A stretch of DNA of 16,789 bases from the NCBI GenBank assembly GCA_013287025.1, contig JABDEN010000037.1, positions 1 through 16,789 of the forward strand, in the 5' to 3' direction. The stretch comes from Gammaproteobacteria bacterium (GTDB taxonomy: Bacteria > Pseudomonadota > Gammaproteobacteria > DSM-16500). A program made the translations under genes and the position numbers. Shown here in pieces: positions 8,350 to 16,633 of the stretch. The notes under the pieces are model-generated. The model ran no database searches. It was not told the DNA's origin and saw only the letters and a program-made list of their open reading frames with translations. Within the stretch, counting starts at the first letter, position 1. Each line of letters begins with the position of its first letter.

Positions 8350-8946
8350 TTAGTTTGCTTCAAGAATTTCATTGAGTAACTTATACACGGTTGAACAATT
8401 ACCTTCTAGAACTTCTACGGTGTCATGCTTTCTTTTTCCATTATGTACTGCCGTCTTACAATTTTCTCTTCTAATTTCTTTGACACCAATATTACTTTTC
8501 GTATAATTTGGTAAATGTCTAAGCAATCTCCTCACACAATCATTCGTGTTTTTAACATCATCTCCACTTTCAAAATGTAACAGTAACCAATATTCGAATT
8601 TTGGATTACTTATTGCTAAATTATGCTTAATATTAATTTTTTCCCATTCGAAACATTCTTGAAATGCACTTTTTTTTCGGCCATCAACGTCTATTATCAA
8701 CCAAATTTGTTCATTTTTATTCAAACCATTTTCCTTAATATATTTTTTAGCTCGCTTTAAAATTTGGTTAGGCTCAGTTTTCTTATCACCTTTTTTTACA
8801 ATTATATTAACCCTATCATTTATTTTTTTTAAAATAGTAAAATAATCGTTTTCAGTTTTTTCGCCTTCTGGGAAAATTGTAAAAACCTTTCTATATTCTC
8901 TTGTACCTATTGGTCGACTAAATTGATTTTTTTTTGATTTATTCAT
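8350..8946 (-). CDS. RloB-like TOPRIM-fold protein, second gene of an AAA/RloB abortive-infection-type pair
   Basis: This is a 198-residue protein with the signature of the RloB family. An N-terminal EG.KTE motif with Glu27 (FPEGEKTENDYF, 25-36) and a hydrophobic strand ending in Asp86-Val-Asp88 (IWLIIDVDGR) together resemble the TOPRIM metal-binding E and DxD. The RloB-typical NPKFEYWLLLHF lies at 114-125. Related systems (RloA/RloB beside type I restriction loci, lactococcal AbiL) pair such a protein with an ABC-fold ATPase. Their TOPRIM subunit is thought to be a nuclease released or switched on by the ATPase upon phage infection. The gene starts 14 bases after the ATPase stop, so it is co-transcribed. 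No strong ribosome-binding site is seen before its ATG, which suggests coupling or weak expression. Its base composition is visibly more AT-rich than the prp and mdt genes, consistent with acquisition by transfer. The family is likely; activity and target are inference. Confidence 0.82.
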   Translation of the reverse strand: MNKSKKNQFSRPIGTREYRKVFTIFPEGEKTENDYFTILKKINDRVNIIVKKGDKKTEPNQILKRAKKYIKENGLNKNEQIWLIIDVDGRKKSAFQECFEWEKINIKHNLAISNPKFEYWLLLHFESGDDVKNTNDCVRRLLRHLPNYTKSNIGVKEIRRENCKTAVHNGKRKHDTVEVLEGNCSTVYKLLNEILEAN

Positions 8947-8960
8947 GAAAATTTTCTACT

Positions 8961-10259
8961 TTAATGAGAAAGCAAAAGAATTTTGGGAATTCCGCCAAAA
9001 CTCCCCCGCAGATAACTTTTTCTAATATCTTTATCATTACGAGTATCTTTATATTCACTTAGCGAGAATAATTGCGTTGCTGAATTGGTATTTCTTTCTG
9101 TAATCCATAATTCATCCCTTCTCAATAACTTTTGATCCATTAACGTCACATTATGCGTAGTAAATATTAACTGTGAACGACTAGACGACGAGCAAGTTTG
9201 AAAATAATACTCCAGTAGCGAACGAATTAGCATGGTATGCATAGAATGATCAAATTCATCAATAATATACGTTTTACTTGATTTATCATTTGATAAATCG
9301 ATTATTGCTGGCAAAAGCTCTATCATTCTTAAAGTCCCTTCAGATTCTTGAGCCAAATCAAATTGAATATCATTACCATCTTTAGTTTTATGGTAAGAAA
9401 CAAGTTTCTTTAAAGATAATTCTCCATTCCTTTTTGATATAACAAAATTTCTACCTATTAAAACATCTGCACCATCAGGCAAGTCTTCTGAAACTTTTGC
9501 TTTTAATTCCTCTGGAAATTGAATACTTTCAAAAGTAACTTCGATACCATCCAATTGTGTGATACCCGTATCTAATTCAGAAATAATATTGTTAATCATC
9601 GAATATGTTGAAGTATCCTCTTTGTTTATTAAAAACCCCCATGAAAGATTAGACTTTGGACCTAATACAATTAAATTATGTTTAAACCAATCGTGTACAG
9701 GAGAAAAATCATCTTTTTTTTGATCTACTGTTTTAGTTAAAAATAATTGATTATCTCTAGTTCCTTCAGCAATAAATTTTAATCTTTGATCCTGACTTAA
9801 TGAAGGATCATCAGGAAACGTAACCTTTCCATTCGAGTCGCGCTCATATAAAACTTTTTGACTGTATGGGCCAAACTTAATTAGTTTTTCTTCTACAACT
9901 TTCTTTGATGTCACAGCAAAACTAAATTCATAGCAAATTTCATTGACTAATATTTGAAAACTAAAGCGTGTAGGTTCATGTTCGAGTTTTTTATCTAATT
10001 TAAATACGAGTCTTCTAATCAAACTTTCTGGCTGAGTGATTGTTGTAATAAAATCTCTTGCAAAGCGAATAGCATTACAAATTTTAGTTTTACCTGCGGC
10101 ATTCGCTCCATAAATAGCGGCAATGGGTAACAGGCGAAACCCATATTTTTTAATAATGGGTACACGTTCTGAATGCTGTTTTTCTTTAGTAGCAATCATA
10201 GAAAAAGTTATAGGTTCTCTTACAGATTCCCAATTTTCCACTGTAAATTTTATGAGCAT
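8961..10259 (-). CDS. AAA15-family (RloA/AbiLi-like) ABC-fold ATPase
   Basis: This is a 432-residue ATPase. The N-terminal strand MLIKFTVENWESVREPITFSM is typical of the COG1106/AAA15 group. Walker A is at 51-58 (GANAAGKT), an ABC-like signature at about 305-311 (ESEGTLR), Walker B at 331-335 (YIIDE, catalytic Glu335), and the switch histidine is His369 (FTTHN). The stretch between about 80 and 290 replaces the long coiled coil of SMC-like relatives. The C-terminal RKSYLRGSFGGIPKIL is also common in this group. It is the first gene of a two-gene unit with the RloB-like TOPRIM protein, so by family precedent it is probably the sensor or gate of a defence module. A good AAGGTGG site lies 6 bases before the ATG and an extended -10 promoter about 45 bases upstream. 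It is complete, with no decay seen, so the cassette is plausibly functional. Retron-, OLD- or PARIS-type pairings were considered; the RloB partner favours Rlo/AbiL. Confidence 0.85.
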   Translation of the reverse strand: MLIKFTVENWESVREPITFSMIATKEKQHSERVPIIKKYGFRLLPIAAIYGANAAGKTKICNAIRFARDFITTITQPESLIRRLVFKLDKKLEHEPTRFSFQILVNEICYEFSFAVTSKKVVEEKLIKFGPYSQKVLYERDSNGKVTFPDDPSLSQDQRLKFIAEGTRDNQLFLTKTVDQKKDDFSPVHDWFKHNLIVLGPKSNLSWGFLINKEDTSTYSMINNIISELDTGITQLDGIEVTFESIQFPEELKAKVSEDLPDGADVLIGRNFVISKRNGELSLKKLVSYHKTKDGNDIQFDLAQESEGTLRMIELLPAIIDLSNDKSSKTYIIDEFDHSMHTMLIRSLLEYYFQTCSSSSRSQLIFTTHNVTLMDQKLLRRDELWITERNTNSATQLFSLSEYKDTRNDKDIRKSYLRGSFGGIPKILLLSH

Positions 10260-13939: not shown

Positions 13940-14030
13940 TGTCATGCCAGCATGCTTTCAGCTGGCATCCAGTCGGCAACCAATAGAATCGCCTGGATGC
14001 CACCTCTCGCTACGCTCGGCTGGCATGACA
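13940..14030. repeat. Bipartite palindromic repeat, copy A (~90 bases)
   Basis: The outer inverted termini are perfect over 12 bases: TGTCATGCCAGC at 13940-13951 and GCTGGCATGACA at 14019-14030. An inner inverted pair is perfect over 10 bases: TGGCATCCAG at 13963-13972 and CTGGATGCCA at 13993-14002. Each half is also its own hairpin; the left half has an 8-base stem ATGCCAGC/GCTGGCAT with a 9-base loop. This is a REP/BIME-like layout. The left half of this copy matches the reverse complement of the right half of copy B (16265-16356), so the two copies are inverted. It lies between prpD and the RAP gene. No clear target duplication is visible, and no T run follows to make it an intrinsic terminator. 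Confidence 0.85.
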
Positions 14031-14089: not shown

Positions 14090-16285
14090 ATGCAAGATCG
14101 TCATCATCCAAAAAATAATCACCGTTCTGAAAGAAAAATTACCAGCCCTGAACTGATTGATCTCACGAACATTTTAGATCAACTTGCGGAGAAAACGACT
14201 TCTGAATCCCCCACAATTTCCAAAAACGAAGAAATGCTCCAGATAGATAATGCAATACTTGAAATAGAAAAAATTCTATCCAAAAATTTCAAAAATTTAT
14301 CCTTAAAAGCCATCGACGAACTTTTATATCTGTTAGTCAAAGCAAATTTTAAAAAAAATACATTAGATGAATATCCTCACATTGCAACTCAATTAGTCGA
14401 TAAAATTGAATTGTTACTTCAAAACTTGAGAGAGCAAAAAGATCCTACATTTAATGAAAAACATATTGAAATATTGTGGTCTTTCAAAAAATTAAATTAT
14501 AATGCTGAGAATTTCCGCTATCTCAACAACATTATTTTTCCATTATTAAATAGAAAAAAAGATTTTTGCCTTTCTTATTTACATTTATGCTCCGAATTAG
14601 GTTTCACCGCTTATCATATGAGAAAAACAGCTTATAAACCTATTCCTGCGATTATTGCATTTTTACAAAATCCTAAAGGTGACGAGGATCCAAGCTTAGC
14701 TTCGAGAAAGCTTTTACGATCGATAAGTTTATTAGGATTTAGCAAAAAAGATTTCACATCCAAAGAACGCGATATTCTACTCGAGAAAATTCCCGCTATT
14801 TTAGATAATGTCAAAAATAAGGGAGAAAAACCGGATTATTTAATTAAATTCTTTTGGATGTTAGCGCGGTTAGATTTTGATTTTGCTGAATTAAAAGATA
14901 AACCGATCATGAAGAAAGTTTCTGAATATTACAAAGCTTATCCAAAAACTTTTATTGAAATTGAAAATATCGCCTTATTTTTATGGAGTATGGCGGCTAT
15001 TAACGTTCCGACCGACTATTCACTATATAAAAAATTCATCGAAAAAGTATTGCCTACGCTGCAATACGCACCATTAGAAACAGAAGACTACATTTCTCAA
15101 ATTCTCACTGGTCGACTTTACTTTGATTTAAATCTATCGCCAACAAGAAGAGAGCTTTTAGGAAAAAAATTACATCGTAAACACAAAAGTTCAGAACTAC
15201 ATCTTCTGCTTGAAAACATCATTCGCAGATTATTAGATGAAGAAAGAGAAAAAGATCCAACTATTCCTGAACCTCCGAAACCAATGCATGAATACACATT
15301 TGAACATGGTATTATTGTAGTGGATACCGCGCTTTCGGAAGATTTTGTCATTGAATTTGATGGCGCATTACATTCCAATCAAAATGTCAGTGATAAATTA
15401 AAAAATCGTTTATTAGAAAAATTAGGAGTGACTTGCATTCGAGTTTCAAGCGAAGAAATTTATAACGCAAAAGCAAAAGATGATTTACTTCATTTTTTAA
15501 AAGTAAAAATTATTCAGCCATATTTACATCATCATCAAGAAAAGCTTCAAAAAATGGAAAAAGAAGAAAAACAATATGATGTTGCTGACAATTTTTATAA
15601 TCAAACACCTATTGCTTGGTCAGAGCCTGTCGAAAATGATGGTTTTTATGATCAACCGCCTATTGAATGGGAGCAATCGCAACCAAAATTAACTTTTAGT
15701 GAAATTGTGCGAAAAGCGGAAATAGCGGCAAAAATAGCTGAGAAAAAAACGTCTCTCGAAAAGGAAACTCCAAAAAAAATACCTACCGCCATTACGTTAC
15801 CAAAGAAAGTTATCCTTCCTGAAATAAAAGTCCTTTCGAAACCTACACCCCCAGCTTCTATTGAAAATACTACAAATGATGTCGTTAGTTTTCCAATAGG
15901 GAATACAAAAGAAACTCCAAAATCTTTTTTTCAACCCATTCAAAAAAAGAAAAGAAGAATAACAACAAAAGTCGCTATACCTCACTCCGAAGAAAAAATT
16001 TCGAGAAGTGCCGCACTAAACCATGTAGATGAACATCTTGAAAAATTACTTTTTGGACGTCAAGCTGAAAATCTTTTTGAAATAAAATTAGAAATAGCTT
16101 CCGCGCTAAATAAACATTCGGTTTTGGAAGGTGAATTGGAAAAAGCGTTAGGTAACAATTTAATTATTACAACGAGCACGCAAGGTTGTTGGTTTTTCAA
16201 AAAAACAATTCATACACTGCATTTTTATGAAAAAGATTTTGAAAAAAATCTACAAGGTTTTAGTCGTCATGCCAGCCTACGCTAA
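14090..16285 (+). CDS. OPR/FASTK-like helical-repeat protein with RAP domain (putative RNA-binding protein)
   Basis: This is a 731-residue protein, not matched to a named gene. Residues about 70-350 hold at least seven helical units of similar pattern, spaced about 36-50 residues: AIDELLYLLVKANF, KHIEILWSFKKLNYN, YLHLCSELGF, LLRSISLLGF, LIKFFWMLARLDFDF, IALFLWSMAAINV and ISQILTGRLYFDLNL. This resembles octotricopeptide/FASTK-type repeats that bind RNA. A RAP domain follows at about 404-475, with VVDTALSEDFVIEFDGALH and the helix KLKNRLLEKLG plus the strand CIRVSSEEI; its ExD (Glu422, Asp424) recalls the PD-(D/E)XK nuclease fold to which RAP is related. The tail (about 480-640) is charged and low-complexity, with a 17-residue tandem repeat, then a helical module at 640-715. 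The last six codons and the stop lie inside palindromic repeat B. Role is unknown: RNA processing in the cell, or a secreted eukaryote-like effector, are both possible. No signal peptide or membrane segment is seen. Confidence 0.75.
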   Translation: MQDRHHPKNNHRSERKITSPELIDLTNILDQLAEKTTSESPTISKNEEMLQIDNAILEIEKILSKNFKNLSLKAIDELLYLLVKANFKKNTLDEYPHIATQLVDKIELLLQNLREQKDPTFNEKHIEILWSFKKLNYNAENFRYLNNIIFPLLNRKKDFCLSYLHLCSELGFTAYHMRKTAYKPIPAIIAFLQNPKGDEDPSLASRKLLRSISLLGFSKKDFTSKERDILLEKIPAILDNVKNKGEKPDYLIKFFWMLARLDFDFAELKDKPIMKKVSEYYKAYPKTFIEIENIALFLWSMAAINVPTDYSLYKKFIEKVLPTLQYAPLETEDYISQILTGRLYFDLNLSPTRRELLGKKLHRKHKSSELHLLLENIIRRLLDEEREKDPTIPEPPKPMHEYTFEHGIIVVDTALSEDFVIEFDGALHSNQNVSDKLKNRLLEKLGVTCIRVSSEEIYNAKAKDDLLHFLKVKIIQPYLHHHQEKLQKMEKEEKQYDVADNFYNQTPIAWSEPVENDGFYDQPPIEWEQSQPKLTFSEIVRKAEIAAKIAEKKTSLEKETPKKIPTAITLPKKVILPEIKVLSKPTPPASIENTTNDVVSFPIGNTKETPKSFFQPIQKKKRRITTKVAIPHSEEKISRSAALNHVDEHLEKLLFGRQAENLFEIKLEIASALNKHSVLEGELEKALGNNLIITTSTQGCWFFKKTIHTLHFYEKDFEKNLQGFSRHASLR
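15587..15670 (+). repeat. Two-copy 17-residue tandem repeat within the RAP-protein tail
   Basis: DNFYNQTPIAW (residues 500-510) recurs as DGFYDQPPIEW (517-527), 51 bases apart. This points to a local duplication in the linker region, with synonymous and replacement changes since. Confidence 0.7.
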
Positions 16286-16356
16286 GCGCGCGGTGGCATC
16301 CAGTTGGCATCTAGCTGTGCCGCTTGGATGCCAGCTAAAAACATGCTGGCATGACA
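16265..16356. repeat. Bipartite palindromic repeat, copy B (~90 bases), overlapping the RAP gene end
   Basis: The outer termini GTCATGCCAGC (16266-16276) and GCTGGCATGAC (16345-16355) are perfect over 11 bases. The inner pair is TGGCATCCAG (16294-16303) and TTGGATGCCA (16324-16333), perfect over 9. The right half, read in reverse complement, matches the left half of copy A, and the left half likewise matches copy A's right half, so B is inverted relative to A. The centre differs between copies. Its left end codes for the last residues (RHASLR) and the TAA of the upstream gene. It also separates two convergent genes, a frequent location for REP-like elements. Confidence 0.85.
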
Positions 16357-16361
16357 GAGTT

Positions 16362-16601
16362 TTATCGATGAGATTTTAGTGAGGGTAAATTATCGGTTTT
16401 TTTATCACTTTCAGTCACAGGCTGATACATCCTCATTTCCGCTTCCCGGCATACTTTTGTACTGACTGCTGCCGTTAATAAAGCCGCCGCTGAACCAATA
16501 GCAAAAATACTCGAAAAATAAATAGCTTGGTCCTTTCCAGATAATTTATCAACATTATCTGCCGTTGTATTTTTTAATATTTTCCCGATATTCCTTAACA
16601 T
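16362..16601 (-). CDS. Small single-span membrane protein, unknown function
   Basis: A 79-residue product that I do not recognise. Residues 1-25 are basic and polar (MLRNIGKILKNTTADNVDKL). One hydrophobic segment at about 27-47 (IYFSSIFAIGSAAALLTAAV) is a likely transmembrane helix. The remainder is a charged, probably disordered tail with PVTESDKKTD. Support that it is a real gene comes from a good GAGGAAG ribosome-binding site (16606-16612) before the ATG and a plausible promoter upstream. It also runs cleanly between two repeats with no better frame on either strand. Its stop sits 6 bases past palindromic repeat B. It could instead be a membrane small protein of stress or toxin type, but nothing specific points there. 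Confidence 0.55.
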   Translation of the reverse strand: MLRNIGKILKNTTADNVDKLSGKDQAIYFSSIFAIGSAAALLTAAVSTKVCREAEMRMYQPVTESDKKTDNLPSLKSHR

Positions 16602-16633
16602 TTTTCTTCCTCTAATTTAAAAAAAAGCGAGCA

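Follow-up and report, generated by a model that had tools for sequence, protein, structure and literature searches.

A 731-residue protein encoded on a 16,789-nucleotide stretch of DNA from an uncultured gammaproteobacterium (contig JABDEN010000037.1 of assembly GCA_013287025.1; the whole stretch is called the window here) combines helical repeats with a C-terminal PD-(D/E)XK domain of the DUF559/RAP type and a long charged tail. We consider it, with a probability of roughly 60%, to be a rapidly diverging bacterial representative of the solenoid-plus-PD-(D/E)XK proteins, which are best known from organelles in the form of OPR-RAP and FASTK proteins; the solenoid would bind RNA, and the domain would cleave or clamp it. 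A sequence-only reading of the same DNA had described an OPR/FASTK-like repeat protein fused to a RAP domain, and the organelle-type order of repeats followed by domain, in a bacterium, is borne out by what follows.

The reading frame is a real gene: it runs unbroken from an ATG at position 14090 to a stop codon at 16283-16285, and a GAGG (read by eye) lies about 5 bases 5' of the ATG. Its G+C content at third codon positions is 0.228, against 0.337 for prpD, 0.403 for the RND pump and 0.208 for AbiLi in the same window. About seven hydrophobic repeat cores can be picked out by eye near residues 71, 124, 163, 208, 250, 292 and 332, at a spacing of about 39-53 residues. An AlphaFold2 model from the single sequence places 20 helices ahead of the first strand, after which strands and helices succeed one another as in an endonuclease core; because the mean predicted local distance difference test score is 53.6, the model is taken for topology only. 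The solenoid followed by an endonuclease fold that the earlier reading had anticipated thus appears in the models, at low confidence, and the repeats are homologous to those of another protein (below). The tail (residues 501-731: K 11.7%, E 10.4%, P 6.9%) had been described as having no recognised counterpart, and in a Pfam scan of the whole protein it indeed contains no match, none starting past residue 442.

By score, the C-terminal domain is of DUF559 rather than RAP type. DUF559 (PF04480) matches residues 413-460 above its cut-off (24.1 bits against 20.6, E 3.5e-5), whereas RAP (PF08373) stays below its own (13.7 bits against 24.2, E 0.063, residues 436-471), as does DUF2726 in the same region (21.2 bits against 24.7). 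The RAP label therefore holds for the type of core, with its ExD, but not for the family itself. The motif VVDTALSEDFVIEFDGALH spans residues 410-428, and D412, E422, D424, G425, H428 and R451 are invariant in all six rows of an alignment of such domains (A3), so that the E and D said to be kept from the nuclease-like fold are indeed present; since the DUF559 row of A3 has the same core, the D...E-x-D-G..H pattern cannot tell RAP from DUF559. The predicted domain contains the alpha-beta-beta-beta-alpha-beta core of the PD-(D/E)XK or Vsr-like fold, and sits C-terminal to the helical repeats as judged from the low-confidence models and from repeat homology. With the low-confidence model as query, the top of the Foldseek list held Toxoplasma mitoribosome chains, FASTKD4 and I-Bth0305I, and a search of the PDB with the protein sequence returned 3hrl as its sole match (E 0.19). 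The window domain reaches 22.2 bits on a profile built from 48 stand-alone DUF559 domains and 12.8 on a four-row RAP-like profile. Judged from these scores, the protein lies nearer the bacterial nuclease side than true RAP proteins do.

The repeats were connected to known families through a third protein. A domain-profile search of 36 genomes of the window's probable order reached a 413-residue protein (L163; the same gene as a 429-residue frame in genome G014, locus L121), which itself stays under the cut-offs for DUF1601 (17.4 of 25 bits) and DUF559 (15.7 of 20.6). Residues 1-400 of the window protein, with the domain excluded, align to the repeats of the L163 frame with a Smith-Waterman score of 103, compared with 41.9 +/- 6.7 for 1000 shuffles, none of which scored as high; nor did any of 803 control open reading frames (best 57), which are six-frame translations of at least 250 residues from loci L001-L080 and include some that are not real proteins. 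With the whole protein as query, phmmer joins window and L163 over residues 192-453, repeats and domain together (E 2.7e-8 in a set of 10). The repeats of L163 in turn match those of a 435-residue protein of the same order (L166) with a score of 164, reached by 0 of 5000 shuffles and 0 of the 803 controls; L166 carries DUF1601 at 109.4 bits and FAST_1 at 31.4 bits (cut-off 27.4), and RAP is not listed for it. Because the window repeats are homologous to those of L163, and these match a protein over the cut-offs of DUF1601 and FAST_1, a relation to OPR-type repeats follows: by this sequence chain, the homology of the window repeats to bacterial DUF1601/FAST_1-type repeats is shown. The double match of L166 (L166:4985-6292) is also of interest in itself, as it hints at kinship of the two repeat families.

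Direct comparisons are weaker. Window against L166 scores 55, as high as in 43 of 5000 shuffles and above all 803 controls (best 53). Other direct Smith-Waterman scores of the window repeats were equalled, out of 300 shuffles each, by 54 (L095), 16 (L157), 46 (L093), 22 (P0003), 91 (L096) and 4 (L098, which is the L166 protein). Two OPR profiles, one of 23 repeats (16 of them from L093) and one balanced, of 18 repeats, gave the window non-significant scores of 0.3 and 2.0 bits, equalled by 146 of 2000 and 150 of 5000 shuffles. DUF1601, FAST_1 and FAST_2 are absent from the six Pfam families listed for the protein at a limit of E 10, at which HMMER's filters nevertheless remove most matches above about 0.1, and hhalign of the window against five relatives aligned the domain alone. 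A two-sequence profile of the last repeat block of L095 and L096 scores the window at 2.4 bits, as high as 39 of 5000 shuffles and 1 of the 803 controls; this was suggestive of kinship, and is superseded by L163. The OPR/FASTK-like label accordingly stands by homology through L163 and by the weaker direct similarity to L166, but finds no support in any OPR, DUF1601 or FAST profile. Repeats recur every 42-43 residues in L093, L164 and L166, slightly more than the 38-40 residues given for OPR repeats (PMC8635915).

The protein has few detectable relatives. As a query it found no homologue at E 0.001 among 7996 candidates scored, and its residues 375-500 found none at E 1 among 284 candidates. 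None was present in the 37 stretches returned from genome contigs or the 3 from viral contigs; plasmids and phages gave no match at E 0.01, and NCBIfam no family. Nine genomes reached through loci contained a match in 2 at E up to 10 (best 0.057), and the 36 order genomes a match in 4 at E 0.1 (best 0.0012), G014 with its L163 not among them. These 36 genomes represent the order of the genome at locus L001, to which the window probably belongs as far as its sequences indicate: its RND pump, searched in that order, is at most 72% identical to proteins there and has a match in 35 of the 36 genomes. The window's PrpD is best matched, at 67%, by metagenome-assembled genomes (MAGs) of gammaproteobacteria (L001, L004); PrpD alone places the window poorly because identities across the 80 retained loci range only from 60 to 67%, with MAGs of other phyla among them and also Legionella at 63-64%.

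Proteins of similar build nevertheless recur in the class. Domain-profile matches are present in 19 of the 36 order genomes and in 75 of 143 genomes of Legionella's order; among the 30 matches listed for the 36-genome set, 23 lie in frames of 103-162 residues and are thus stand-alone domains, and 16 of the 36 genomes have a stand-alone domain whose frame does not exceed 162 residues. RAP matches are much rarer (1/36 order genomes; 2/143 Legionella-order genomes, one of them over the cut-off; 5/369 class-sample genomes), and DUF1601 is found in 1 of the 36. Of the five RAP matches in the class sample, one is G040, also the match in the 36-genome order, and two (G252 and G282; loci L091 and L092) were judged on reading to be of helicase type and set aside, as were L120, L126 and L128, of helicase or ATPase type. 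The repeat-plus-domain proteins are L093 (class sample, 1149 aa, DUF1601 and RAP), L097 (class sample), L094 (the window's probable order) and, in the order of a Legionella genome, L095 (P0002, Legionella sp. H2069_01970), L096 and L164. Their RAP and DUF559 scores, in bits, are 45.7 and 11.9 (L093), 45.7 and 17.7 (L094), 32.2 and 15.5 (L097), 21.0 and 20.9 (L095), and 19.0 and 43.2 (L096), as against 13.7 and 24.1 for the window; the two proteins of L164 reach 29.6 and 28.4 bits for DUF559 and have no RAP match at E 0.1. Other long domain-bearing frames exist beside those read here (many in the Legionella-order listing; G034:C97). On sequence evidence, repeat-plus-RAP/DUF559 proteins are shown to be sparse among other gammaproteobacteria, with the repeat-then-domain order present in several.

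Two of these loci deserve mention in their own right. L164:14-4860 holds two tandem genes (687 and 860 aa), each with many near-identical 43-residue repeats followed by DUF559, and the two lend themselves to a comparison of repeat specificity. L165:4014-8264 (1416 aa) has a long N-terminal part that looks coiled by eye, a RAP/DUF559-like core (YDGLDH) and a P/Q-rich tail; L127/L165 was not grouped with the others, since its N-terminal part is unlike the repeats.

Bacterial solenoid proteins with a nuclease-like domain are rare but already known. OPR proteins are mentioned in Coxiella burnetii (PMC8635915), bacterial and archaeal RAP candidates have been described (PMC8190603), and both an Orientia RAP protein and the Ralstonia RipS/SKWP type III effectors with OPR-like repeats, such as RipS4, are reported (PMC7729196); since such proteins are in print, we regard the window protein as a divergent variant. 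The Coxiella, Orientia and Ralstonia proteins are likened to it by published description and not by sequence, and the same holds for proteins of Plasmodium in which helical repeats go with a RAP-like DUF559 domain, found by predicted structure (PMC11079077), which share its architecture but are eukaryotic. Among the open-licence papers searched, we found no bacterial solenoid-DUF559 protein. The bacterial proteins L093, L094, L097 and L095 agree with the window in the order of repeats and PD-(D/E)XK domain, some with a tail past the domain, but L093, L094 and L097 exceed the RAP cut-off, and L093 also has DUF1601, where the window has neither and is of DUF559 type. The OPR-RAP protein P0003 (848 aa; presumably an algal-type protein) shares the architecture, and a profile that includes the window (A2) reaches it at E 5.4e-3; unlike the window it is over the cut-offs for RAP (53.1 bits) and FAST_1 (38.2 bits), and the two have no significant direct match. 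FASTKD4 (PDB 9gek; Foldseek rank 3, probability 0.66) resembles the window in placing a Vsr-like RAP domain after a helical module, but the FAST_1 and FAST_2 domains of FASTK proteins are not listed for the window. The DUF559/Vsr-like endonucleases 3hrl (ngo0050) and 3r3p (I-Bth0305I) share the domain fold and core residues, and A3, a profile with a DUF559 row in it, matches 3hrl at 3.6e-18; their structures (94 and 97 residues) are without the solenoid.

By analogy with these proteins, the solenoid would bind single-stranded RNA, and the domain would cleave the bound RNA or hold its end; the tail may serve as a flexible linker, or as a targeting or partner-binding segment. Possibly, though this goes further, the protein is injected and acts on host or organelle RNA instead of the bacterium's own, an option raised because DotI/IcmL (PF11393), a single component family of the Legionella-type Dot/Icm secretion system, marks 31 of the 36 genomes from the window's probable order, and because bacterial OPR-like proteins include type III effectors. 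Regulation of own RNA and action as an injected effector seem about equally plausible on such analogies.

Whether the domain acts as a nuclease at all bears on this reading. It may be catalytically dead, a scaffold or adaptor that only holds nucleic acid or protein, and this is a serious if lesser possibility, whose clamping form fits the reading preferred here, so that the two are not exclusive. The lysine of the usual ExK is not at its place (E422-F423-D424), and FASTKD4, reported to have a Vsr-like pocket without nuclease activity, warns by analogy that such a pocket need not cleave (PMC11879112); yet the D...E-x-D-G..H set is identical in the stand-alone DUF559 row of A3. An unlikely alternative is a DNA-directed endonuclease of defence or DNA repair, in which the domain would nick DNA while the repeats bind DNA or a partner, and the organelle resemblance would reflect shared parts only. 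The DUF559 rather than RAP score, the higher score on the stand-alone profile than on the RAP-like one, the frequency of stand-alone domains in the order and an AbiL-type pair in the same window all agree with it, but the prp genes lie between that pair and the 731-residue gene, no PADLOC family matches the protein at E up to 0.001, and homology ties its repeats to the DUF1601/FAST_1 type, where the relatives that have been studied act on RNA.

Convergence, meaning that the repeats acquired their DUF559 domain in an event separate from the origin of the OPR-RAP proteins, also seems rather improbable. A 59-row domain tree does put the window among stand-alone DUF559 domains and away from the 10 other repeat-fused rows, and the Plasmodium proteins provide another reported case of helical repeats with a RAP-like DUF559 domain (PMC11079077); however, the window's end branch in that tree measures 7.09 changes per column, and its position is flagged as unsure. 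Moreover, a single collinear match links L163 to the window across both repeats and domain, and a profile of repeat-fused domains (L164, L096, L095, L163) scores the window domain at 26.2 bits against 22.2 on the stand-alone profile, a small gap between profiles of different make-up.

Features of the window and of the 731-residue protein (coordinates in the window).
Feature	Position	Strand	Basis or remark
Gene for solenoid + PD-(D/E)XK-domain protein, 731 aa	14090..16285	+	single uninterrupted frame
Alpha-solenoid, residues ~45-388	14222..15253	+	low-confidence models (single-sequence: 20 helices to residue 388; second: residues 180-388)
Solenoid part homologous to L163 repeats, residues 187-384	14648..15241	+	Smith-Waterman against the L163 frame in L121
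DUF559/RAP-type PD-(D/E)XK domain, residues ~398-460	15281..15469	+	Pfam and predicted fold
Core residues D412, E422, D424, G425, H428	15323..15373	+	invariant alignment columns, 6/6 rows
Charged tail, residues ~500-731, without known domain	15587..16282	+	Pfam, composition
Palindromic repeat element, upstream of gene	13940..14030	.	fold z -4.54, 0/200 shuffles as good
Second palindromic copy	16265..16356	.	fold z -4.34, 1/200 shuffles as good
AbiL-type defence pair	8350-10259	-	PADLOC: AbiLi 266.9 bits, AbiLii 78.9 bits
Short frame, ~73 codons, partly hydrophobic by eye	~16383-16604	-	no Pfam match at E 0.001

The gene comes next after prpBCD (Pfam names) and is flanked on either side by a palindromic element of about 92 bp; the six C-terminal residues of the protein (RHASLR) and its stop codon are encoded by the second copy. 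A 12-mer from the element, TGTCATGCCAGC, occurs once each in L003, L078 and L115. The AbiL pair sits in an AT-rich stretch. Rfam gave no match across the window, and a promoter and terminator scan did no better than on shuffles. Beside L163, L164, L094 and L095 no common neighbour was seen when the first residues of the listed open reading frames were viewed, no family scan having been run.

OPR and RAP proteins handle much of the organelle RNA of algae and apicomplexans, and their bacterial members are in print only as scattered cases. The gammaproteobacterial solenoid proteins, several of them in Legionella's order, may form a graded series in which the last domain passes from DUF559-type to true RAP. 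It is a long shot that this series is the bridge by which a Vsr/DUF559 nuclease joined OPR repeats and reached organelles, or else the trace of a reverse transfer, with the DUF559-type members, including the window protein, still active as solenoid-guided RNA endonucleases. The DUF559-scoring bacterial solenoids offer a place to seek the step from an ordinary bacterial endonuclease to an organelle RNA-binding domain, and they lend themselves to a direct test for nuclease activity.
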